Part shown: positions 6,563 through 63,974 of the stretch, in pieces | Layout of the letters: every line of letters begins with the position of its first letter | Position numbering within the stretch: position 1 is the stretch's first letter | DNA from: an uncultured Nitrospira sp. | GTDB lineage: Bacteria; Nitrospirota; Nitrospiria; Nitrospirales; Nitrospiraceae | Reading direction: 5' to 3' | Length of the DNA: 64,000 bases | NCBI GenBank assembly: GCA_902500825.1 | Contig: CABVRX010000020.1 | Location: 1-64,000 of the forward strand | Translations under genes and position numbers: made by a program | Notes under the pieces: generated by a model | Told to the model about the DNA's origin: nothing | What the model saw: the letters and a program-made list of their open reading frames with translations, nothing else | The model's database searches: none

Positions 6563-7183
6563 ATGGGACTGTACGCGACTCAGATCTTTCCCCGACTGAT
6601 GGATTGGGTCATGGCTCAACCGGCATTCTCGCAACTCCGAGAAGCATTGTTGCAGCCGGCATCCGGGGAGGTGCTGGAGATCGGGTTCGGAACGGGTCTT
6701 AACCTCCGTCATTACCCAACCACTATCACTCGCCTTTCCATCGTCGACCCGGCAATTCTGCTTCCAGCGAAAGTCGCCCACCGCATGGCCGCCGCGCCGT
6801 ATCCGATCCAGACCAACCATGTAACGGCTGAGGCCCTGCCGTTTCCGGAACGACAATTCGACACCGTCGTCAGTACCTGGACACTCTGCACCATTCCCAA
6901 TCCAATCCTCGCGCTGCAAGAAGTGGGGCGTGTCCTCAAACCGGGAGGAAGGTTTCTATTCTTGGAACATGGCCGGAGCGACGACCGAAAGACTGCTGCA
7001 TGGCAGGACCGACTGAATCCGATTCAGAACGTCATCGGTTGCGGATGTAATCTCAATCGCCAGATTGATCGGTTAATCACTCAAGCCGGCCTGAACATCA
7101 CACATCTGGATCGATTCACTATGCAGCGTGTGCCCAGGTTGGCAGGTGAGATGTACCAAGGCACAGCAACCAAAACCAATTAG
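6563..7183 (+). CDS. class I SAM-dependent methyltransferase
   Basis: Small-molecule or lipid methyltransferase of the Methyltransf_11 type. The SAM-binding motif I is 'VLEIGFGTGLNL', followed by an acidic 'IVDPA' strand end and 'ALPFPERQFDTVVSTWTLCTIPNP' (motifs II-III), with 'LKPGGRFLFLEHG' closing the core. The start at 6563 (MGLYATQIFPRLMDW) fits the usual N-terminus of this family; upstream in-frame codons would run into the divergent gene. The last 4 bp overlap the convergent HAD gene. Substrate not predictable. Confidence 0.87.
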   Translation: MGLYATQIFPRLMDWVMAQPAFSQLREALLQPASGEVLEIGFGTGLNLRHYPTTITRLSIVDPAILLPAKVAHRMAAAPYPIQTNHVTAEALPFPERQFDTVVSTWTLCTIPNPILALQEVGRVLKPGGRFLFLEHGRSDDRKTAAWQDRLNPIQNVIGCGCNLNRQIDRLITQAGLNITHLDRFTMQRVPRLAGEMYQGTATKTN

Positions 7184-7857
7184 GCTGGTGACCGGCCGTT
7201 GAGAAGCGGTGCGAATCCGGTAATGGAGAAAAACTGAGCGAGCGGAGACGGTGGTAATTGCGAACTCGACTTGGCGCTGTGAACCAAGTTGGCCATCCCG
7301 AACTCTTTAGCAGCCAGCAGACATCCTTCATCGTCATCCATGAACAGGGATCGCGACGGATCGAAACCCAACAAGCGCTGACAATTCGGCCAATACTCCG
7401 GTCGCATCTTGAGATAACCGACCTCAAAGGCATCCACAATCCGGTTGACATAACGATCCAGACCGGTCTTAGCGACTTTGACCGACACACCCGTAGAATG
7501 GGCGTTGGTCACGATGGTCACACGCTTCCCAAGCTGCCGAAGATGGCGCAAGAATTCCTCGGCACCAGGGAGAAAGCCGATCATGTGATCGAGTTCCTCG
7601 TGCATCGCCACTACATCGATGCCGACCCGCTTCGTCCAGTAGTCCAGGTCCGTCCAAGCTAATTCGCCTTCGACCGATCGATACATCGCCATCAGGCGAT
7701 CGCGAGCTTCCTCAAACGGGAGAGCGTGCAGCACCGCATAACGACGGGGTAGCTCCTCCTCGAAAAAGAAGTTATCGAAATGACGATCGAGCAACGTCCC
7801 GTCCATATCGAGTAGCACATCGTCAATTTGAGACCAGTCGGGGGGGTGCTGAGTCAT
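7180..7857 (-). CDS. HAD-family hydrolase, GMP/IMP nucleotidase-like
   Basis: Haloacid-dehalogenase superfamily phosphatase of 225 residues. Motif I is DMDGTLLD with nucleophile Asp at about residue 17, motif II is 'VTIVTNAH', and motif IV is 'SLFMDDDEG'. The N-terminal 'LDRHFDNFFFEEELPRRYA' cap sequence resembles YrfG-type purine nucleotidases, so dephosphorylation of GMP/IMP is plausible but not proven. Its start is separated from the divergent der gene by about 80 bp. Confidence 0.82.
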   Translation of the reverse strand: MTQHPPDWSQIDDVLLDMDGTLLDRHFDNFFFEEELPRRYAVLHALPFEEARDRLMAMYRSVEGELAWTDLDYWTKRVGIDVVAMHEELDHMIGFLPGAEEFLRHLRQLGKRVTIVTNAHSTGVSVKVAKTGLDRYVNRIVDAFEVGYLKMRPEYWPNCQRLLGFDPSRSLFMDDDEGCLLAAKEFGMANLVHSAKSSSQLPPSPLAQFFSITGFAPLLNGRSPA

Positions 7858-42487: not shown

Positions 42488-43198
42488 ATGACTTCGCAAC
42501 GTCCCAAGAAAATTCTCATCGTCGAGGATGAACAGGACATTGCACAGTTGGTCAGGCATTATCTTGAAAAAGAAGGATATCATCCGAACATCGCTAAAAC
42601 CGGTCTTGAAGCACTCAACTTCGCAGTACCTGAGCATCCCGACTTAATTATTCTTGACCTCATGCTGCCTCAGATGGACGGATTAGAGGTGTGCAAAGCC
42701 CTCCGTCACAAGCCCGAGACTGCGCGGTTGCCCATTATCATGCTGACGGCGAAGAAGGATGAATCCGATACCGTTGTCGGACTTGAGCTCGGAGCCGATG
42801 ATTACGTCACCAAACCCTTCAGCCCCAAGACATTGGTGGCTCGGGTCAAAGCTCTCTTCCGTCGGCTGGAGCGGACCAACGACCAAAAGCCAACGTCCTT
42901 AGTGTACGGTTCCTTGCACATGGACCTGACGCGACATGAAGTAACAGTAAACGGCAAAGAAGTGCCGCTCACGACCAAGGAGTTTGGTTTGCTGGAGCAA
43001 TTGTTGCGGCACCCGGGGCGAGTACTGACGCGGGAGGTGCTCCTTAATGAAGTGTGGGGTTACGACTATTATGGGACGACGCGAACCGTCGACGTCCACG
43101 TTCGGCGCGTGAAACTGAAAGTGCCGCTCCTCAATGACTCGATCGTCTCGGTCAAGACGCTGGGATACAAACTCTTGGACCAGCCTCGGACGCAGTAA
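42488..43198 (+). CDS. PhoB-like OmpR-family response regulator
   Basis: A 236-residue DNA-binding response regulator. The receiver has the acidic pocket 'VEDEQD', phospho-acceptor Asp in 'IILDLMLPQMDG' (about residue 57), Thr in 'IIMLTAKKDE' and Lys in 'YVTKPFSPK'. The winged-helix domain includes 'LTTKEFGLLEQLLRHPGRVLTREVLLNEVWGYDYYGTTRTVDVHVRRVK'. No histidine kinase gene adjoins it. It carries a Pho-box-like array in its own promoter, suggesting autoregulation, and lies at the head of a cluster with the same array. Confidence 0.9.
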   Translation: MTSQRPKKILIVEDEQDIAQLVRHYLEKEGYHPNIAKTGLEALNFAVPEHPDLIILDLMLPQMDGLEVCKALRHKPETARLPIIMLTAKKDESDTVVGLELGADDYVTKPFSPKTLVARVKALFRRLERTNDQKPTSLVYGSLHMDLTRHEVTVNGKEVPLTTKEFGLLEQLLRHPGRVLTREVLLNEVWGYDYYGTTRTVDVHVRRVKLKVPLLNDSIVSVKTLGYKLLDQPRTQ

Positions 43199-43884: not shown

Positions 43885-45900
43885 TCAACTGCCGATCTTC
43901 CCTCCGTCATCTTTGGTAATGACGATCAAGGCCGACCGTGGTCGACCACCGTTCGGACCGTCCGGCCAGGAGCTGAACTGCTTCGGATTGTTTGGATCGC
44001 CGGGCTGGTCATCCGGCCGCTCGCCAGGATGCTGAATCCCGACGAACATGTTGCGCCGATCAGGAGTCATCATGACGCCGGTGATCTCACATTGATTCGG
44101 GCCAACCAGAAACCGGCGTGTCTCCTTGGTCTCCGGATCGGCTGCCACCATCACATTGTTGCCGAATCCCGCGTACGCGCCCGCATTGATGGTCGAGGTG
44201 GATACATCGGTCTGGATCCAGACCAGTCCTCTAGGGTCCACATAGATGCCGTCCGGTGAGCCGTACTTATCGCCGAAGATCGTGGAACCATGGGCTGGGT
44301 TTGCCGGATCGCCGCATAGGGCGAAGAGATCCCAGCCGAACATCGACTCCGTCCAATCCTGCCGATAGTACCAACGAATGATGTGCCCATAGGTATTAGC
44401 GACCCGAGGATTGACTGCATCCACCGGAGGTCGAGCCGAGCCGGCAGCGGTCGTCCCATCGGGAGTATTCACCGACGACGGACTCGTGCCGCGCCGGTTG
44501 TTATTGGTCAGCGTCGCGATCGCCGTCAGAGTTCGAGGGAACGTATCGATCCACTCGGGTCGATCCATCATGGTCGCGCCGACTACGTCCGCGGCGCCGC
44601 GCGTATTGATGAGAATGTCGCTCAGGGTCCATCCGGCGAGACGCGGATTGTCCGGAGTCAATGGAAGCCATTCCCCAGCCCCGTCCGCGTGAAACTTGGC
44701 GACATAGAGAATGCCGTCATCCAGAGGATTGATGCCTTGCTCGCGTGCCTGTCTCCAAGGAAGATTGGATACGTAGCGGTAGATATACTCATTCCGTTCA
44801 TCATCGCCCATGTAGACCACGACCTTCCCGCTCCTGGCCTCCTGCACCCAGGCGCCTTCGTGCTTGAGACGGCCAAGCGCGGTTCGCTTCACCGGCGTCG
44901 AGTGAGGCCGGAACGGATCGATTTCTACGACCCAGCCGAACCGATTCGGTTCGTTGGGCTCCTCATCGACTCGGAAACGCTTATCGGTTGTGTGCCAGCG
45001 ATACCCGGAGCCCGTGGCATTGATGCCGTATCGCTTCTCAAGATTTGTCTGTGGTCCGTTCTTGCGGAAGTAGCCGTTGAAATTTTCTTCACAGGCCAGA
45101 TACGTCCCCCAAGGCGTGTAGCCCATGGCGCAGGTATTTAACGTGCCCAACACGCGCTTTCCGGTGGGATCTTCGCTCGTCACGAAGCGAGGGTCACTTG
45201 CCGCCGGTCCACCCATTTCAATGGGGGTCATGCCGGTGATCCGCCGGGCAAAGGGAGATGGCCGAACCACGTCCCACTTCCCACGGCGACGCCGGGAGTC
45301 GAAGGGAACGCCGGTCCGCTTCGTCACTTCGATGATCGACACGCCATGAGCGTTGAGCGACTTGTTCGTCTTTTCCTGTGTCCAATTGTTGACTCCATCC
45401 GGAAACAGCAAACCATCGTCTGTATATTCATGGTTCTGGACAATCAAGCCGCGCCGTGATCCAACAATGGGGAAATAGACGAGGCCGTCATTATGCATGC
45501 CCCACTGACGCGCCTGGTCATCGGCGGTGTTGCTCGCATCCTGTTTGAACGTCGGACCGTTCGACAACGGGTCGCCCCAGGCAATGAGAACCTCGGCTGT
45601 ATAACCATCCGGCACGACCAGTTCGTCTGCGGTAGAGACCGGAACACTTTTGAACCTCAGCATGGGCTTGCGGCGCCCTCGTCCCTCCGCTCCTTCTTCC
45701 GCGTCGTTATCTTCAGCCGTTTCTTGGGCGGAGGCGGGCATGGCACTCAACACCCCTTTGATACCGCACAGTGACACCGCCGCAACAGTCGCGAGAGTGC
45801 CGGTCAAAAGGTGGCGTCGCGACAGACGCGCGCCCAAGATGTCTTGGAAGTGTTCGTTGCCGGAAGCATTACTCACGCCCTCATCATCGATGATCGACAT
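43885..45900 (-). CDS. PhoX-family (DUF839) alkaline phosphatase-like protein
   Basis: Calcium-iron phosphatase family, 671 residues. It is exported by the Tat route: 'LSRRHLLTGTLATVAAVSLCGI' holds the twin Arg. The body includes 'LSNGPTFKQDASNTADDQARQWGMHNDGLVYFPI', 'QNHEYTD', 'GYTPWGTYLACEENFNGYF', 'FGWVVEIDPF' and 'YMGDDERNEYIYRYVSNLPW', typical of PhoX. It releases phosphate from organic esters in the periplasm or outside. The promoter carries four 11-bp-spaced Pho-like hexamers. The C-terminus includes 'GVMMTPDRRNMFVGIQHPGE'. Confidence 0.9.
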   Translation of the reverse strand: MSIIDDEGVSNASGNEHFQDILGARLSRRHLLTGTLATVAAVSLCGIKGVLSAMPASAQETAEDNDAEEGAEGRGRRKPMLRFKSVPVSTADELVVPDGYTAEVLIAWGDPLSNGPTFKQDASNTADDQARQWGMHNDGLVYFPIVGSRRGLIVQNHEYTDDGLLFPDGVNNWTQEKTNKSLNAHGVSIIEVTKRTGVPFDSRRRRGKWDVVRPSPFARRITGMTPIEMGGPAASDPRFVTSEDPTGKRVLGTLNTCAMGYTPWGTYLACEENFNGYFRKNGPQTNLEKRYGINATGSGYRWHTTDKRFRVDEEPNEPNRFGWVVEIDPFRPHSTPVKRTALGRLKHEGAWVQEARSGKVVVYMGDDERNEYIYRYVSNLPWRQAREQGINPLDDGILYVAKFHADGAGEWLPLTPDNPRLAGWTLSDILINTRGAADVVGATMMDRPEWIDTFPRTLTAIATLTNNNRRGTSPSSVNTPDGTTAAGSARPPVDAVNPRVANTYGHIIRWYYRQDWTESMFGWDLFALCGDPANPAHGSTIFGDKYGSPDGIYVDPRGLVWIQTDVSTSTINAGAYAGFGNNVMVAADPETKETRRFLVGPNQCEITGVMMTPDRRNMFVGIQHPGERPDDQPGDPNNPKQFSSWPDGPNGGRPRSALIVITKDDGGKIGS

Positions 45901-48287: not shown

Positions 48288-48463
48288 CGACTCTCCCTTT
48301 CTTGAGCCCGCTGGCTCCTCCACCTAGACGGCCCTTCCCCGTCTTCCCTTTCGCCCGTCGCACAGGCGACGCTCCCTGGCATTCTTGGACGCCCTCCGAG
48401 TTGCATTTCCCTCCCTCCTGCGTTGACACTGAAGGGCGCCGGCTCTGCCATGAGGATTCCACG

Positions 48464-49948
48464 ATGATTGGATTGGACAAACATCTCGTTCCGCCTAGTC
48501 GCTCCTCCCCAATCTCATCACAACCAGAACGCGAACTGAAGCTAGCCATTGCTCCAGATTTCCACCTGCCTCGGTTTCCTGGCACGCCGCTCCCCCGGAG
48601 GCAGCTGATCTCCACCTATTACGACACTGCCGCCTACGACTTGGCCCACGCGAGGATTACCCTTCGCCATCGAATCGAACGGGGGAAGAAGTCATGGCAG
48701 CTGAAAATTCCATTGGACGATGATCGGCAGGAAGTGGAAGTGGCCGGCGACCAGGCCGATCCACCGGCCTCGCTGCGCAGCTTACTGATTCTCCATCTTG
48801 GACCTCGAAAACTGATGCCGGTCGTGACGCTGCGCGTCTGGCGAAGGGGCTTCCTGGTACGTGATGGCCGCATACCCGTCGCGGAGATCGCGCTCGACAC
48901 CGTGTCAGTCGACAAGAACGGCCGTACTACTCAGCGCTTTCGTGAGCTGGAAGTCGAACAACGGCAAGGCGACGAGGCCTCACTTCGTTCTCTTGAACAG
49001 CGGATGCGAGAGGCCGGTGCGTCCGATCACGACGGAAGGCCAAAATTATTTCGCGCGCTCTCCCTCCCGGCCCGTACCTCACCTAGGCAGCCTGAGACGG
49101 AGGCACCGGTGGTCGAACACGTAAAGTGGGCGCTCGCTCAGCACGTTGGATGGCTCCTCGCCCATGATCCCGGAACGAGGCTGGGAACCGAGAGCGAGAG
49201 CCTACATCAAATGCGCGTCGCGACGAGACGCCTGCGTGCAGTGCTCCACGCTGCTCGACCGATCCTTCTCCCCGCATGGGCCACGTCGCTGCAACAGGAG
49301 CTTGATTGGCTCAGTGATCTGCTGGGGCCAGCCCGCGATCTGGATGTCCAGATCTCCTATTTTAGGGACGAATCTGCGGGATTGGATGCACGCGATCGCA
49401 AGTTGTTAGCGCAATTCATCGCCCATCTTCGAATTCAACGAGAGGCCGTTCAGAAGATGGTCCTCGGCGAGCTCACGAGCGCTCGCTACTTCGAACTCAT
49501 CCGGCGGCTGCAACAGGCCGCGCATGATCCGTCGGTGGTGGAGTCTCCCCTGCGCGTACGTCATCTCGCCCAGCGAGCATTCAAGAAGCTGCGCAAGGCG
49601 ATCAACCGGTTAGGTCCTTCCCCGTCAGACACCCGACTTCATAAGGTTCGCATCACGGCCAAGCGCGCCCGCTATGCGGCGGAACTCGCCTGCAGCTCGG
49701 TGGGAAAACTTGCCAGGCGCTTTATCAAGTCCGCGCGTGCGATCCAGGATTTACTGGGTATCCATCAGGATGCGATCCAAGCGGAACGTCATATCCGGCA
49801 GTTCCTCAAATACTCGACCAGCGTCCGCGCCGGATTCGTCGCAGGACGCATGGCCGAGCGGCAGCGCCACCGGCGTCAACGAGTCCGCAAAGACATGAAG
49901 TCGCTGTTCAAGGCTTTGCTAAAACGAGGAAAGAAGGCGTGGAGGTGA
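48464..49948 (+). CDS. CYTH-CHAD domain protein
   Basis: A 494-residue protein. The N-terminal CYTH (triphosphate tunnel) domain begins with the ExExK-type motif 'ERELKLAI' and has alternating basic strands ('ARITLRHRIERGKKSWQLKIP'). The CHAD domain from about residue 210 has conserved His/Arg helices ('LHQMRVATRRLRAVLHAARP', 'LGPARDLDVQI', 'LHKVRITAKRARYAAELA'). CHAD domains bind polyphosphate and CYTH hydrolyse or bind triphosphates. ATG at 48464 is preferred; the frame is open from 48302 without family similarity. Confidence 0.88.
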   Translation: MIGLDKHLVPPSRSSPISSQPERELKLAIAPDFHLPRFPGTPLPRRQLISTYYDTAAYDLAHARITLRHRIERGKKSWQLKIPLDDDRQEVEVAGDQADPPASLRSLLILHLGPRKLMPVVTLRVWRRGFLVRDGRIPVAEIALDTVSVDKNGRTTQRFRELEVEQRQGDEASLRSLEQRMREAGASDHDGRPKLFRALSLPARTSPRQPETEAPVVEHVKWALAQHVGWLLAHDPGTRLGTESESLHQMRVATRRLRAVLHAARPILLPAWATSLQQELDWLSDLLGPARDLDVQISYFRDESAGLDARDRKLLAQFIAHLRIQREAVQKMVLGELTSARYFELIRRLQQAAHDPSVVESPLRVRHLAQRAFKKLRKAINRLGPSPSDTRLHKVRITAKRARYAAELACSSVGKLARRFIKSARAIQDLLGIHQDAIQAERHIRQFLKYSTSVRAGFVAGRMAERQRHRRQRVRKDMKSLFKALLKRGKKAWR

Positions 49949-54973: not shown

Positions 54974-56452
54974 TCAACTCACTGGAATGCCGGGTTCGTT
55001 GGCAAAACGGTAGGCGCACCGAAGCTCCTTCGCTTCTTTTTCGGCAATGCCCTGCAACTCAGGCGCCACCTCATGGACAAACTCCACGAATCGTTCGACC
55101 TTCAACAAAAAGAAGTCATAGATTCCGGAGAAAGGTCTTGGCTCACGAAACCAGAACGCTACAAACCCATCGAGCGACACATCACGTTCTCTGAGCCGAC
55201 GACAGGATTCTACGAACATGTCCTCTACCTTTCCTCCCCAGTGAAGAATCTCATAAGGAAGATAGACGAAGCGATAGAGGTCCAAATCTTGGATACCGGC
55301 CGTGTCTTGGCTCCATTCTGCTCCCACTGGCTCCGTTTTGCCCGTTAGTACGCGTGCATATCGATCGTAGGCCACTCCAAGCGTTTGCGTGTCAGGTATT
55401 GATCTCGGCTCTTCTGACAATGAACACCTATCGAAATCCGATACGATCCGTTCGTTGCTCAGCGGGGAGAATAGCGGCCTATAATGCTGGGAAAATTCGG
55501 CGAATTCATCCACGATCAATTCGACCTGTTTCGTATCCACTTCCAAGGCCATCCCCTTCAGGCTGGTGAGCCGTGGATGGCAGAGAATCTGATCGAGCAT
55601 CTCGAACAAGACGGTTGGAATGGGAGCAGCATGGTCATCGATCCAAGCAGGGAGTGCATCATCACCCATACCGCCCCTCGGTCGCGAAGCGAGCGTTCGG
55701 TGTGATTCATGACCGGCCAGACCCGCCACGTGAATCTCTACCACACGATCCATGGGAAACTCGTTGAGAAATTCCTCGACAAATCGTGTGAGCGACGTGG
55801 CTCGATGCGCTCCGGAATATCGAAACACCGTCCAGAGATGGCCCACGTCCAAGACCAGCCCACAGGGAGCCTGTTCGCTGACGACGCGAAAAAACCTTGG
55901 AATGGACATCGTCCCAGCGACAAAGTACGTAAGTGGCGGCATTTCAAGCAGCACCAACGGCGTGCTCTCGTTGGCCAAACGACACTGTTGATCGAGCAAA
56001 TGTTGGATCAATCGTGTATTGTGAGCCACCACTTTTGCGCTTAACGGAGTGTAGAGGGGGGGAAGATAAGTCCCGTAGTGATAGCCGGCGAGATACTTTG
56101 TCGCACATTCATGATTCAGCCAGGCACTTTGCAAGATCATCAGTTGTTCGGCAGCTTCAGAGATTTCCTGTCCAAACGCCGTCGAATCGGCCATCTCGGG
56201 CTGAGTGACCCACAACCCTTCACCATGATAAGTCAGCAGACCGTCGCCGGCCTCCTTCCTCGTGGACACCAAAGCCGTGGAGGTCGTACGGAACACTTCA
56301 AAGTAATCAGGCGGCACTTGACGTTCTTGTAGACTTCGCCGCAAGCTAGCGAGGTCCGGAGCATGGATATCGACGGAAAGCCCCATCCCATGCACCGGAA
56401 TTGTCACGAGCCGACGAAGGAATTCCCTATGGTGAGACCGACTCATCGCCAT
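54974..56452 (-). CDS. DUF692-like TIM-barrel protein with C-terminal extension
   Basis: A 492-residue protein. The N-terminal about 300 residues look like DUF692, relatives of the iron enzymes MbnB/TglH that modify peptides: 'GMGLSVDIHAPD', 'HGEGLWVTQPEM', 'LLEMPPLTYF', 'CGLVLDVGHLWTV', 'RVVEIHVAGLAGH', 'DALPAWIDDHAAPIPTVLFEML' and 'GMALEVDT'. The last 190 residues are a separate helical region. No precursor-peptide gene was found beside it. The similarity is by motif pattern only. It is translationally linked to the dihydrouridine synthase. Confidence 0.65.
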   Translation of the reverse strand: MAMSRSHHREFLRRLVTIPVHGMGLSVDIHAPDLASLRRSLQERQVPPDYFEVFRTTSTALVSTRKEAGDGLLTYHGEGLWVTQPEMADSTAFGQEISEAAEQLMILQSAWLNHECATKYLAGYHYGTYLPPLYTPLSAKVVAHNTRLIQHLLDQQCRLANESTPLVLLEMPPLTYFVAGTMSIPRFFRVVSEQAPCGLVLDVGHLWTVFRYSGAHRATSLTRFVEEFLNEFPMDRVVEIHVAGLAGHESHRTLASRPRGGMGDDALPAWIDDHAAPIPTVLFEMLDQILCHPRLTSLKGMALEVDTKQVELIVDEFAEFSQHYRPLFSPLSNERIVSDFDRCSLSEEPRSIPDTQTLGVAYDRYARVLTGKTEPVGAEWSQDTAGIQDLDLYRFVYLPYEILHWGGKVEDMFVESCRRLRERDVSLDGFVAFWFREPRPFSGIYDFFLLKVERFVEFVHEVAPELQGIAEKEAKELRCAYRFANEPGIPVS

Positions 56453-56551
56453 CGTTTCTCTCTTGCAGACGGTCACAATTCGCTCCTAGTTTATGTCGTC
56501 AAACTCTTGAATGACAAGGCGTTCAACCTCTCATGGTCTCAAAGTGCCTTC

Positions 56552-59500: not shown

Positions 59501-60202
59501 GTGATTCCGCTCCACGACGATAATCCTACTCAACGAACTCCCTTCGTCACGATGATCCTCATCGGCGTCTGTATCGCTGTGTTTCTCCATCAAGTGAATC
59601 TTACTCAGGAGGCCGCCGAACTCTTTGCATTTCAATACGGTGCTATCCCCTCCATTATCTTCGGTCGCGCTTTGCTTCCTGAGGAAGCTGTTGCGATTCC
59701 GTCGTCGCTCACCCTGGTCACCAGCATGTTTCTTCACGGAGGCTGGATGCATCTACTCGGGAACATGCTGTACCTCTGGATTTTCGGGAATAACATAGAA
59801 GACGCGATGGGGCATGCGAAATTTGTCGCCTTCTATCTCTTGTCCGGTATCCTTGCCGCTCTGAGCCATGCCTTAACCGACCCTTCCTCCCAAATTCCAA
59901 TGGTTGGAGCAAGCGGGGCCATCTCGGCCGTGCTCGGGGCTTATCTAGTGTTATATCCACGCGCTCACGTATTGGTCTTGCTGCCGGCGATCGGAATGAC
60001 TCGGGTGGCAGCGGGTATCGTGCTCGGCATGTGGTTTATCACACAGCTGATCAGTGGAGGCATGAGCGTGGGTGCCACCGGAGGCGGTGTCGCTTTTTTC
60101 GCTCACATCGGTGGATTTATTGCGGGTATGGCACTGATCGGTCTTTTCAAACGAAAAGAGGTGCGTTTTTTTTCGCCGGGCCGATCGACGTGGCCTTCAT
60201 AA
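59501..60202 (+). CDS. rhomboid-family intramembrane serine protease
   Basis: A 233-residue six-helix membrane protein. 'SMFLHGGWMHLLGNMLYLWIFGNNIED' is the family loop with conserved His and Asn, the catalytic Ser lies in 'MVGASGAISAVLGAYLVLYP' (GASG, about residue 144) and the catalytic His in 'FFAHIGGFIAGMALIGLF'. It cleaves membrane-anchored proteins within the bilayer. GTG start. Confidence 0.93.
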   Translation: MIPLHDDNPTQRTPFVTMILIGVCIAVFLHQVNLTQEAAELFAFQYGAIPSIIFGRALLPEEAVAIPSSLTLVTSMFLHGGWMHLLGNMLYLWIFGNNIEDAMGHAKFVAFYLLSGILAALSHALTDPSSQIPMVGASGAISAVLGAYLVLYPRAHVLVLLPAIGMTRVAAGIVLGMWFITQLISGGMSVGATGGGVAFFAHIGGFIAGMALIGLFKRKEVRFFSPGRSTWPS

Positions 60203-60231: not shown

Positions 60232-62055
60232 TCATGCGGCATCCAACATTTCTCTGACCTTCTCGATCAATCCTGATTGACGGTAGGGTTGCTGCAGAAC
60301 AAACCGCCGGTTAATCCGGAGGTGTCGAATCGTTTCATCATCGTAACCTGAGACGAACAGTGTCTTCATCGTCGGATGCTGCCTCAAGAGTCGACGGGCA
60401 AGTTCACGCCCCTCGATTTCCGGCATTACCAAGGGACTCACCGTGAGATGAACAATCCCATGATATTGCTGTGTGAGCATAAGCGCCTCAACCGATGAGG
60501 CCGCCTCCAAGACTCGATAGCGGTGCCGCTGAAAAGCCGATAGCGCCAACTTCCGTTCGATCTCGTTTTCCTCCACAAGCAGAATCGTTTCGTCTCCTTT
60601 GGCCAGTATGACTTTCGGCATCACTTCCTCCCGCGCCTCCGCCGTCGAGACCGCAGGGAAGACGACCAGGACGGCGGTTCCTTGTCCTGGTCGACTATCG
60701 ACTTGCAGTGTGCCGCCGTTCTGGTTGACGATTCTGAAAACTGTGGTGAGGCCAAGCCCGATATTGGTTTCCTTTGTTGAAAACAAGGGCTCGAACATAT
60801 GTGCTTGGGTATCCAAATTCATGCCGGTTCCCGTATCAGTGATTTGAATTAAGATTTGAGGGCGAGGTGATTCGGAGAAATCCTCAAGAGTCTTGACCTC
60901 GATGGTCAGCCGACCTCCATTCGGCATTGCATCACGTGCATTGACGACCAACTGAAAGAGGACCGTTTCCAACCCTTCTCGATCCACCTCGACATAAGCC
61001 ATCTGCTTGTCGAGCTGTATGCTCAGTTCAATGTGATCCGGTAAAAGGCTGGCGATCAGACCATGCATATCCGCCAGCACAGTACGGACGGACAATTGGT
61101 TTCGAACGTGTCGATCGTCAAGATTCAGGGCAATAAGCTGTGCCGTAAGCATGGAAGCTTTTTCCCCTACCCGGAAGAGCGCATCTGCCGATGACTTGAT
61201 TGGGTCACTCTGCTGCAAATGCGATAGCATGACACCCGTGTGTTTTCCGACGACGGCAAACAGCGTCCCGAATTCGCCCGCAATTCTCGTCGCAACTTGG
61301 CCGACGGCTTCCATCTTCTGTGCTTCATGGAGTTGTCTCTCAAGCCCCTGCCTAATAACCTGTCCCTCACGGAGATCAACATTTGCCTTCGCGAGATTGT
61401 CCTTCAGGCCTTTAATCCGCAATTCAAGTTGAGTTTTGGCTGTCTCCAATTCCTCTTCGGTCATCTTCAACTCCTCTACATCTCTCAATAGCGAGGCCTT
61501 TTCTTTCTGTGCTATCGCCGTGCTTTCTAGTGCGACTCCATAGAAGACCGCCATGACGAGAAGAACCGGAATCCCCAGCAGCTGTCCGGAGGCCATGATC
61601 CCGGTTTGCAGAACTCCTTCATAGAGCACAAGGGCGTAGCCGGTACTCAAGAGCAGGGAGAGACCGAGTAGATGACTCAACCGTCTGACAGACGCCGCGA
61701 TCAACATAAGAACAAAATAAACGATATAGAGATCGGAACGGGCGTTTCCAGAAAGGTAGATAACGGTGGTCACGAGGAGTGTATCCAGGGAAACGAGTCC
61801 GGCACTGAACCACGTGGCCTCCAGAACTGTCCGAGGCAGCATTGCGGTAACAAAGACCACCATCCATAGTCCCATCACTAGACCGTTGCTCGTTACTCGA
61901 CTGATCACTGACTCGGCACCGAAGAGCAATTCATACGATAGGATGATAGTGACAAGACTCTGAAGAGCGAGGTAGCGGGAGCCTGGATCGGTGAGCAGCT
62001 GATAGAGTCTGTCTGATGCTGGATCGCGATCACCTTTGCCAAAACTTTGTTCCAT
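60232..62055 (-). CDS. membrane hybrid histidine kinase, degenerate (no phospho-acceptors)
   Basis: A 607-residue protein: six predicted membrane helices (about residues 25-190), a coiled coil, an H-box region, a HATPase domain and a receiver. The ATPase motifs are intact: 'QLVVNARDAMPNGG' (N box), 'ITDTGTGM', 'FEPLFSTK', 'GLGLTTVFRIV'. The usual 'IAHDFNNLL' H-box reads 'IAGEFGTLF', so the phospho-His is Gly. In the receiver the usual 'TDVVMP' reads 'SPLVMPEI', so the Asp is lost, and the Lys of 'KPF' reads Q in 'QQPYRQ'. Start 62055 has GGAAGGATC upstream. Likely a sensor/regulator without phosphotransfer. Confidence 0.85.
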   Translation of the reverse strand: MEQSFGKGDRDPASDRLYQLLTDPGSRYLALQSLVTIILSYELLFGAESVISRVTSNGLVMGLWMVVFVTAMLPRTVLEATWFSAGLVSLDTLLVTTVIYLSGNARSDLYIVYFVLMLIAASVRRLSHLLGLSLLLSTGYALVLYEGVLQTGIMASGQLLGIPVLLVMAVFYGVALESTAIAQKEKASLLRDVEELKMTEEELETAKTQLELRIKGLKDNLAKANVDLREGQVIRQGLERQLHEAQKMEAVGQVATRIAGEFGTLFAVVGKHTGVMLSHLQQSDPIKSSADALFRVGEKASMLTAQLIALNLDDRHVRNQLSVRTVLADMHGLIASLLPDHIELSIQLDKQMAYVEVDREGLETVLFQLVVNARDAMPNGGRLTIEVKTLEDFSESPRPQILIQITDTGTGMNLDTQAHMFEPLFSTKETNIGLGLTTVFRIVNQNGGTLQVDSRPGQGTAVLVVFPAVSTAEAREEVMPKVILAKGDETILLVEENEIERKLALSAFQRHRYRVLEAASSVEALMLTQQYHGIVHLTVSPLVMPEIEGRELARRLLRQHPTMKTLFVSGYDDETIRHLRINRRFVLQQPYRQSGLIEKVREMLDAA

Positions 62056-62251
62056 GCTTTTTGATCCTTCCCTGCAATAGCAGGTGAAGAACAGCAAATT
62101 GTATGCCTCAAAAATCACTGGGCAGTCGTGTCATTTACTGGGATTTGTGTTTTCCTCCTAAACTTTTCCGAATCAAACATCGACAAAATCGAACAGAGGC
62201 AGAGTGCTTGCTGCCGAAGCACCATCACCACGTATACGATATGGAGCGAAT

Positions 62252-63412
62252 CTAGGCAGGTCTTTGGATGCGCTTAATGAACCGGTGAGCCAATTCTTCT
62301 GCCGCCAGAGCTTCGGGAGCGGTAAATGTCACATGTCCCATCTTTCTACCAGGCCGAATTCGCTTTCCGTACAGGTGTACCGCAGCTCCCGATGTTGAAT
62401 GGAGTGCGTAGGCCCCATCTCTGGATGTCACGGATCGCACTTCCTCGCCGATGAGATTCACCATGACCGCAGGGCATAAGAGCCTGGTTTCTCCAAGTGG
62501 GAGCCCACAGGTGACTCGTACTTGCTGCTCGAATTGGGATACGGTACAGACGTCCAGTGTATAGTGACCAGAGTTGTGAGGGCGCGGTGCGATCTCGTTA
62601 ATCAGAAGGGAACCATCTTGGGCCTGAAAGAGTTCTACACAAAAAACGCCGACGCCTTGTAACGCTGCTACGGCTTGTATTGAAAGATTTGCGGATTTCT
62701 CAGCGACGTCAAGAGAAATGGAAGCAGGCACGCGGCTTTCTCGTAAGATACCCAACTCGTGCCGATTCTCGACCACGGGATACACACAGTATACTCCACT
62801 CTCATTTCGCACGACGAGAACCGAAAGCTCTCTGACATATTCTATGAACTGTTCAAGAATCCACCGATGACCGGGTTTAGCATTTTCCAATAACTGTTCA
62901 ACTTCTCTTATATCAGTAGTGTCTCGGAGCAGCCACTGACCTTTCCCGTCGTACCCACTCTTCGCTGTTTTACAAACAGCGGGAAGGCCAAGACGATCGA
63001 TTGCTGAGATCAGTTGAGGTACCGATTCAACGAGGGCAAAAGCGGCAACAGGGAGTTGCCGTGACGACAAGTATTGTTTCTGCTCAAGTCGGTCCTGGAG
63101 TATCCGGAGAACAGCACCGGATGGTCGCATCGGGCGATGCCCTTCCAGCCATTCGCAGAGTTCCGCCGGCACATTTTCCCATTCCAAGGTCACGGCATCC
63201 GCAATACCAGCGAATTGGTCGCGTACACCAAGATCCGTGAATGGCGCTGTAAATGAGTGGGTGGCAATTCGATGAGCGGGCGCCTCAGGATCTGCGTCCC
63301 AGACAGCTACCCGGTAACCCATGCGGTGTGCGGCCCCGGCAAACATGGCCCCTAATTGTCCACCACCCAATACGCCCAGAGTTGAGCCTGGCTCAAGAAT
63401 GTTCTCGATCAC
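62252..63412 (-). CDS. purK: 5-(carboxyamino)imidazole ribonucleotide synthase
   Basis: ATP-grasp enzyme of purine synthesis making N5-CAIR from AIR, bicarbonate and ATP. The 386-residue protein has 'TLGVLGGGQLGAMFAGAAHRMGYRVAVWD', 'AVTLEWENVPAELCEWL', 'PAVCKTAKSGYDGKGQWLL', 'WILEQFIEYVRELSVLVVRN', and 'LLINEIAPRPHNSGHYTLDVC'. The GTG at 63412, 10 nt after purE, gives the standard N-terminus. Coupled with purE. Confidence 0.95.
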   Translation of the reverse strand: MIENILEPGSTLGVLGGGQLGAMFAGAAHRMGYRVAVWDADPEAPAHRIATHSFTAPFTDLGVRDQFAGIADAVTLEWENVPAELCEWLEGHRPMRPSGAVLRILQDRLEQKQYLSSRQLPVAAFALVESVPQLISAIDRLGLPAVCKTAKSGYDGKGQWLLRDTTDIREVEQLLENAKPGHRWILEQFIEYVRELSVLVVRNESGVYCVYPVVENRHELGILRESRVPASISLDVAEKSANLSIQAVAALQGVGVFCVELFQAQDGSLLINEIAPRPHNSGHYTLDVCTVSQFEQQVRVTCGLPLGETRLLCPAVMVNLIGEEVRSVTSRDGAYALHSTSGAAVHLYGKRIRPGRKMGHVTFTAPEALAAEELAHRFIKRIQRPA

Positions 63413-63422
63413 AGCGCTTGAC

Positions 63423-63974
63423 TCATCTCGTGCCCTTGGCCTCGGGGGAAGTGAGAATGCTCTCCGTTTGAGCCCTCCGGTAGTTCTTAATGCGCTCGGC
63501 AATTTCGGAATGACTCCCGGCGAGAATTTGGCCGGCGAGGAGGCCCGCATTTTCAGCGCCTCCGATAGCCACCGTGGCAACAGGAATACCTTTTGGCATC
63601 TGAACGATTGACAATAAGGAATCGAGCCCACGAAGGTTTTCTGTTGGGATCGGCACGCCGATCACAGGGAGGTGCGTCTTGGCAGCCAGCATACCGGGAA
63701 GGTGAGCCGCTCCTCCAGCTCCCGCAATGATAACTTCTATCCCCCGGTCAGGAGCACTTGTCGCGTACTCGAAGAGACGATCCGGCGTACGATGAGCAGA
63801 AACGACGAGTAGTTCATAGGGAATGCCAAGCTCGTCTAAGATCGCTGCGGATTTTTCTAAAACGGGGAAATCCGATTTACTGCCGCCCAAAATACCGACG
63901 AACGGCTGACGGCTCATGAATTTTGGGTCTGCCTTTTTCCGAGATGGTCTTGCTGCCCGCTGTCTTCTGGCCAT
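63423..63974 (-). CDS. purE: N5-CAIR mutase
   Basis: Converts N5-CAIR from PurK to CAIR. The family motifs are complete: '[46 protein letters not shown]', '[28 protein letters not shown]' and '[23 protein letters not shown]'. The ATG at 63974 has AGAGAGG upstream and adds a 19-residue basic extension; an ATG at 63917 would start directly at the domain but has no site. Confidence 0.95.

Follow-up and report, generated by a model that had tools for sequence, protein, structure and literature searches.

A membrane protein encoded by an uncultured Nitrospira sp. has the layout of a hybrid histidine kinase, yet it has lost both phosphoacceptors (the histidine of the H-box and the aspartate of the receiver) together with the receiver lysine, while its ATP pocket is kept. 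The gene lies in the window, by which we mean the whole stretch of 64,000 nucleotides that was analysed. The same-site losses recur throughout the genus, the residues of the ATP pocket are nearly invariant, and the gene is syntenic and under purifying selection. The reading that we consider probable is that of an ATP-binding membrane pseudo-hybrid histidine kinase (hereafter the pseudokinase), which would act through direct contact on a partner, either a kinase or a response regulator, in the manner of DivL and RocA.

Domain architecture and altered sites

The features of the gene and its surroundings are collected in Table 1. The open reading frame, its coordinates and the motifs are all as the initial annotation described them, and the position of the ATG is shared with six aligned orthologues (upstream alignment). 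Pfam matches of the protein are HATPase_c (1.7e-18) and Response_reg (7e-10). HisKA has no Pfam match in it; in a canonical protein that shares the membrane domain, HisKA scores 7e-13. PAS and Hpt domains are absent in the Pfam scan, the receiver forming the C-terminal end of the protein.

The AF2 model, built with 30 relatives (mean pLDDT 68, pTM 0.54), is of good quality in the CA domain and the receiver and weak in the membrane part and the ATP lid. It places membrane helices at residues 24-45, 53-71, 81-102, 107-123, 126-151 and from 161 onward; the confidence is low there, and the helices agree with the six proposed initially. A single unbroken helix (161-278) leads from the sixth membrane helix through the coiled coil and on into the first DHp-like helix. 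The second DHp-like helix (285-309) follows, and then come the CA domain and a (beta-alpha)5 receiver. According to Foldseek and sequence profiles, the DHp-CA core is closest to the CckA DHp-CA structure with ADP (5idj; E 9e-45), further near folds being CckA CA with AMPPNP, ZraS, LvrB, ShkA and DivL. Since no Pfam family was found over the N-terminal membrane domain in the proteins scanned, it may represent an undescribed sensor domain. This domain recurs in canonical histidine kinases, in a GGDEF protein (L197) and in short proteins with a Cys-rich C-terminal module (L196, L204, L205); the loci listed with the recurring domain are L196, L197, L200, L201, L202, L206 and L207.

Table 1. Features of the pseudokinase gene, its neighbours and its relics (window positions unless a locus is named)
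Feature	Position	Strand	Remarks
Pseudo-hybrid histidine kinase ORF	60232..62055	-	607 aa, ATG start
N-terminal membrane domain, res 24-183	61507..61986	-	six predicted helices, without Pfam family
Predicted signalling coiled coil, res 184-235	61351..61506	-	one helix from last membrane helix to DHp-like helix (AF2)
DHp-like (HisKA-derived) helical hairpin, res 236-311	61123..61350	-	not recognised by Pfam HisKA
Degenerate H-box IAGEFGTLF	61258..61284	-	Gly260 (61276-61278) at the phosphoacceptor His site
CA / HATPase_c domain, res 341-468	60652..61035	-	N372, D407, G409, G411, K428, G433, G435 kept; lid 2 residues shorter
Pseudo-receiver domain, res 488-605	60241..60594	-	Asp to Pro541 (60433-60435), Lys to Gln589 (60289-60291), acidic Asp to Glu496 (60568-60570)
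Upstream element GTTCGATTTTGTC	62182..62194	-	126 nt before pseudokinase ATG
purK	62252..63631	-	upstream neighbour, same direction, syntenic
Rhomboid protease gene	59501..60202	+	convergent neighbour, syntenic
3' relics between rhomboid and purK	L191 1001-1311; L190 1616-1669		two non-carrier species

Alignment with canonical relatives bears out the three losses claimed at the outset. The canonical H-box IAHDFNNLL has become IAGEFGTLF, with Gly in place of His; the receiver motif VTDVVMP reads VSPLVMP, with Pro in place of Asp and Ser540 aligned to the preceding Thr; and LQKPF reads LQQPY, with Gln in place of Lys. In addition, the second acidic Mg-site residue of the receiver, Asp in canonical relatives, is Glu. 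The N, G1, F and G2 boxes had all been called intact. This holds for the N box, G1, the F box and the GLGL core; G2 is intact only in part, as the ATP lid is two residues shorter (TKE--TNIGLGL versus TKEPGKGTGLGL in canonical relatives). Because of the shortened lid, ATP binding may be weak, which has also been reported for DivL. Among the hallmarks of an active HisKA hybrid kinase, the HATPase_c fold with its motifs is thus present, while the H-box His and the receiver Asp and Lys are missing.

Residue states and selection among relatives

Matches at E 1e-80 or better were found in 45 of the 79 genomes (species) of the window's genus (g1), a few of them being fragments or broken copies. The complete orthologues within the genus are 61-82% identical, and the named relatives are almost all from Nitrospira or other Nitrospirota MAGs, one being titled Nitrosospira. 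For the comparison of residue states we used 94 sequences in three groups: 39 from g1, 27 from g24 and 28 from g25/27. In g1 the His column holds G22 K8 V3 S2 E2 T1 R1, the Asp column P37 S1 and one gap, and the Lys column Q19 H16 S2 and two gaps. An alignment of orthologues had been proposed as a check, and it reveals losses at the same sites in all genus orthologues that are complete enough to judge, so the pattern is not due to chance. Orthologues with a canonical His or Asp, the mark of a strain-specific lesion, were looked for in the genus and not found among the 39 aligned. As the losses run genus-wide, we rejected such a lesion as their explanation.

The sister groups display intermediate states. 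In g24 the His column holds H16 N6 D2 Y1 L1 Q1, the Asp column H26 Q1 and the Lys column Q24 R3. The corresponding columns in g25/27 are N15 E4 D3 S3 A1 H1 Q1, D20 G5 E2 A1 and R28, and the second acidic receiver residue there is P23 A4 V1. The phosphoacceptor His is kept in 16 of the 27 g24 sequences, so some of these relatives may still autophosphorylate. Overall, the former His column contains fourteen different residues, His included, and ranks 9, 3 and 3 of 91 in variability within its domain in the three groups. The losses appear to have been stepwise and repeated rather than a single event, because the sister genera retain His or Asp (20 of 28 for the Asp in g25/27), yet none of their 55 sequences has the receiver Lys. 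In a quick ML tree (column 540 taken out, Asp column 541 left in) the degenerate sequences (98 rows) group apart from canonical kinases with SH-aLRT support of 100, although long branches leave the deepest joins unsure. On this tree, Lys and the second acidic Asp change once each, and His and Asp change at least six times each (15 and 11 losses if regain is barred). The counts therefore suggest that a part of the receiver site was lost early, and the acceptors repeatedly.

The ATP pocket behaves quite differently from the acceptor sites. Out of 18 chosen pocket positions, 14 are invariant over the 94 sequences, the varying ones being D375 (E in 5), F425 (Y in 2), F421 (Y in 1) and L434 (F in 1). 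Mean entropy of the set is 0.010, 0.021 and 0.050 in the three groups versus 0.72, 0.43 and 0.77 for the CA domain. None of the 20,000 random draws of CA positions per group was as low, a result that demonstrates retention and not a new function, such sites being conserved in all kinases of the fold. It may be argued that the CA domain serves as a donor in heterodimers, phosphorylating the His of a canonical partner in trans, so that its own acceptor is unneeded. Near-invariance of the catalytic residues (N372, D407 and K428 are present in all 94 sequences) exceeds the needs of a pure scaffold, and partner kinases are available, since the genome has 33 HisKA matches, of which 32 are over the curated cut-off. 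However, the DHp-like region has diverged past Pfam HisKA, the ATP lid is shortened, and the membrane domain is matched by no other protein of the genome at E 1e-8; we consider such a donor role unlikely. The idea of a natural kinase that lacks a substrate site, in which a membrane-bound CA donor lends its ATP-loaded domain to other kinases in mixed dimers and the sister genera preserve stages of dismantling (first the receiver acid, next Lys, and finally His and Asp, these two repeatedly), seems to us equally doubtful.

The receiver has the lowest mean domain entropy in g1 (0.44) and g25/27 (0.46); in g24 its entropy is 0.26 versus 0.27 for the coiled coil. Conserved residues specific to the family include R580, N582, Y591, R592 and Q593. 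One could read the pseudo-receiver as a ligand-binding input domain and the whole protein as a small-molecule sensor. The pseudo-receiver of ShkA binds c-di-GMP (PMC7010744), full-length ShkA and CckA CA with c-di-GMP are both among the nearest folds, and the conservation of the receiver in two of the three groups is in line with this reading. Nevertheless, ShkA output needs an active DHp and a second receiver, and the pseudokinase has neither, which makes the sensor reading improbable. Even more improbable, in our view, is a phosphoprotein with an unconventional acceptor (Ser/Thr/Glu or another His). Two candidate residues stand beside the lost acceptors: Glu261, next to the former His, is kept in 93 of 94 sequences, and Ser540, next to the former Asp, is conserved across the groups. 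Ser540, however, corresponds to the Thr/Ser of ordinary receivers, and the only conserved columns with His are 128 in the membrane region and 536 and 579 in the receiver. A relocated acceptor His was rejected, as the DHp-like region has none among its conserved columns.

Whole-protein dN/dS is 0.05-0.22 (14 pairs), and that of the receiver is 0 to 0.13; values for single domains in very close pairs spread more widely, up to 0.48. Purifying selection acts on every domain. Low dN/dS and the nearly complete invariance of the ATP-pocket residues support a repurposed pseudokinase rather than decay, as the initial annotation had proposed. With acceptor loss conserved among orthologues and purifying selection, the protein probably belongs to the functional class of pseudo-histidine kinases.

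Gene order, gene loss and the upstream element

The gene order dus - MbnB/TglH-family enzyme - CBS - LOG - DHH - rhomboid - pseudokinase - purK - purE is kept, within reach of the fetched stretches, in the window's genus as well as in g24, g25, g27, g14, g16 and g26. Since this order is shared across seven genera, we regard the genes as positional orthologues. No partner emerged from the analysis, and the neighbourhood looks like stable housekeeping synteny rather than a functional cluster; both points weigh against the preferred reading. Its MbnB/TglH/ChrH-family protein (PF05114; 500 aa, window positions 54974-56476, minus strand) is syntenic in the family. A full-length profile search across the phylum (395 genomes sampled) listed members that match from end to end in this family of genomes alone; outside it, the kinase core alone matches at the same threshold. 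Farther away in the window there is an OmpR-type response regulator (42488-43198, plus strand), and in the interval up to the next gene, at 43885, we saw no ORF for a kinase. The latter codes for a PhoX alkaline phosphatase (43885-45900, minus strand), which is less than 6 kb apart from a CYTH-CHAD protein (48302-49948, plus strand).

The remaining 34 of the 79 species of the genus have no match at E 1e-80. In all 16 non-carriers of the genus that were searched, rhomboid and purK are close together, the gaps between their matches being about 25 to 115 bp and too short for the gene, except in G066 (~340 bp) and G073 (~520 bp). Six of these loci (G066, G073, G024, G010, G061 and G003) were compared with the protein, and the other ten were assessed by match coordinates. 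The last 18 residues remain in G066, and residues 465-543 plus 581-607 in G073; these remnants are relics of the lost gene. The loci of G024, G010, G061 and G003 have no significant remnant. In G012 the orthologue is broken by an insert of ~1 kb with a transposase-like ORF (L143, about 6600-7600). The gene is dispensable, as it is unmatched in those 34 species and no longer present at the locus of any of the six inspected non-carriers. Its patchy presence, the relics in two species and the transposase-bearing insert might also be expected of a decaying gene that is leaving the genus and has no present function. We find this quite improbable, because dN/dS is well below 1 in every domain and both the ATP-pocket residues and an upstream element are conserved.

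That element, GTTCGATTTTGTC, occurs once in exact form in the 3.79-Mb genome, and we know of no described box to which it corresponds. Allowing up to two substitutions in at most 500 bp upstream of a fixed membrane-domain codon, we found it in 33 of 34 genus loci (L079-L112), L099 being the exception. The same two-substitution search did not find it in L127, L129, L134 or the canonical L144. When the whole fetched stretch was searched on the gene's strand, the pattern GTTC[GCT]NTTTTGT was present near the gene start in 15 of 20 loci (L118-L137; g24, g25, g27 and g26) and not found in L125, L127, L129, L131 and L132. None of the six non-carrier loci fetched has the element. A sigma-70 promoter was not found between 59900 and 62500.

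Known systems and the proposed mode of action

The best profile and fold match of the core is to CckA-type HisKA hybrid kinases (5idj, 5idm), which have the same DHp-CA-REC order. In contrast to them, the pseudokinase is without the His and the receiver Asp and Lys, has the shorter lid, and carries a six-helix membrane domain and no PAS. DivL of Caulobacter is without kinase activity, binds TNP-ATP weakly, binds DivK and controls CckA (PMC4211667). As in DivL, the acceptor His is replaced and N, G1, F and G2 are kept. However, DivL contains PAS domains, and its acceptor site holds Tyr or, rarely, Ala, whereas in the pseudokinase family that site is free to vary and the protein also carries a pseudo-receiver. 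The pseudokinase also resembles RocA in having six putative membrane helices and a kinase-like core; to our knowledge, RocA has no receiver. RocA of Streptococcus pyogenes interacts with the kinase CovS, its own His being dispensable, and its CA domain is without several residues contributing to kinase function (PMC7028121), whereas the ATP-pocket residues are kept here. With no PAS in Pfam, Gly at the acceptor site and an ATP pocket in place, the pseudokinase is not orthologous to DivL or RocA. RcsD, likewise membrane-bound, has an inactive kinase core and cooperates with a partner kinase (PMC13317618); its Hpt domain takes part in phosphotransfer, whereas the pseudokinase has no such domain. 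RetS, which is also a hybrid kinase, has a degenerate core and inhibits another kinase (PMC5992135), but it is the opposite case: its HATPase is degenerate and its receiver Asp works, whereas the pseudokinase retains the ATP site and lacks the acceptors. The output face of the FrzS pseudo-receiver reportedly matters and its phosphorylation does not (PMC1974792), and ChrS inactivated by a frameshift is reported to act through HrrS (PMC9491836).

Contact regulation by the pseudokinase is indicated because a kept ATP pocket, missing acceptors, a pseudo-receiver with family-specific residues and a membrane sensor occur together; the protein probably works by touching partner proteins, not by passing phosphate on. 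The six-helix domain would sense a membrane or envelope signal, which may travel via the coiled coil to a putative dimer of the DHp-like region. The CA domain presumably still binds nucleotide and would thereby set the conformation. As output, two parts would touch the partner directly: the DHp-CA core and the receiver, which is conserved and non-phosphorylatable. This partner would most simply be a canonical sensor kinase or a response regulator, the activity of which may be turned up or down. A partner with the same membrane domain was rejected, given the absence of such a protein in the genome at the threshold named above.

The class of pseudo-histidine kinases is known. The Nitrospira family is undescribed in the open-licence papers that we found, and the search of such papers returned none on this pseudokinase in Nitrospira. 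The novelty lies in a combination: both acceptors are lost and the ATP pocket remains, in a family that is syntenic and contains intermediate states. The known pseudo-histidine kinases of bacteria are few and mostly single cases; the graded natural variants described here allow asking which parts of a histidine kinase matter without phosphotransfer. There is also a consequence for annotation, in that such Nitrospira proteins are easily named hybrid kinases and wrongly counted as phosphorelay parts.
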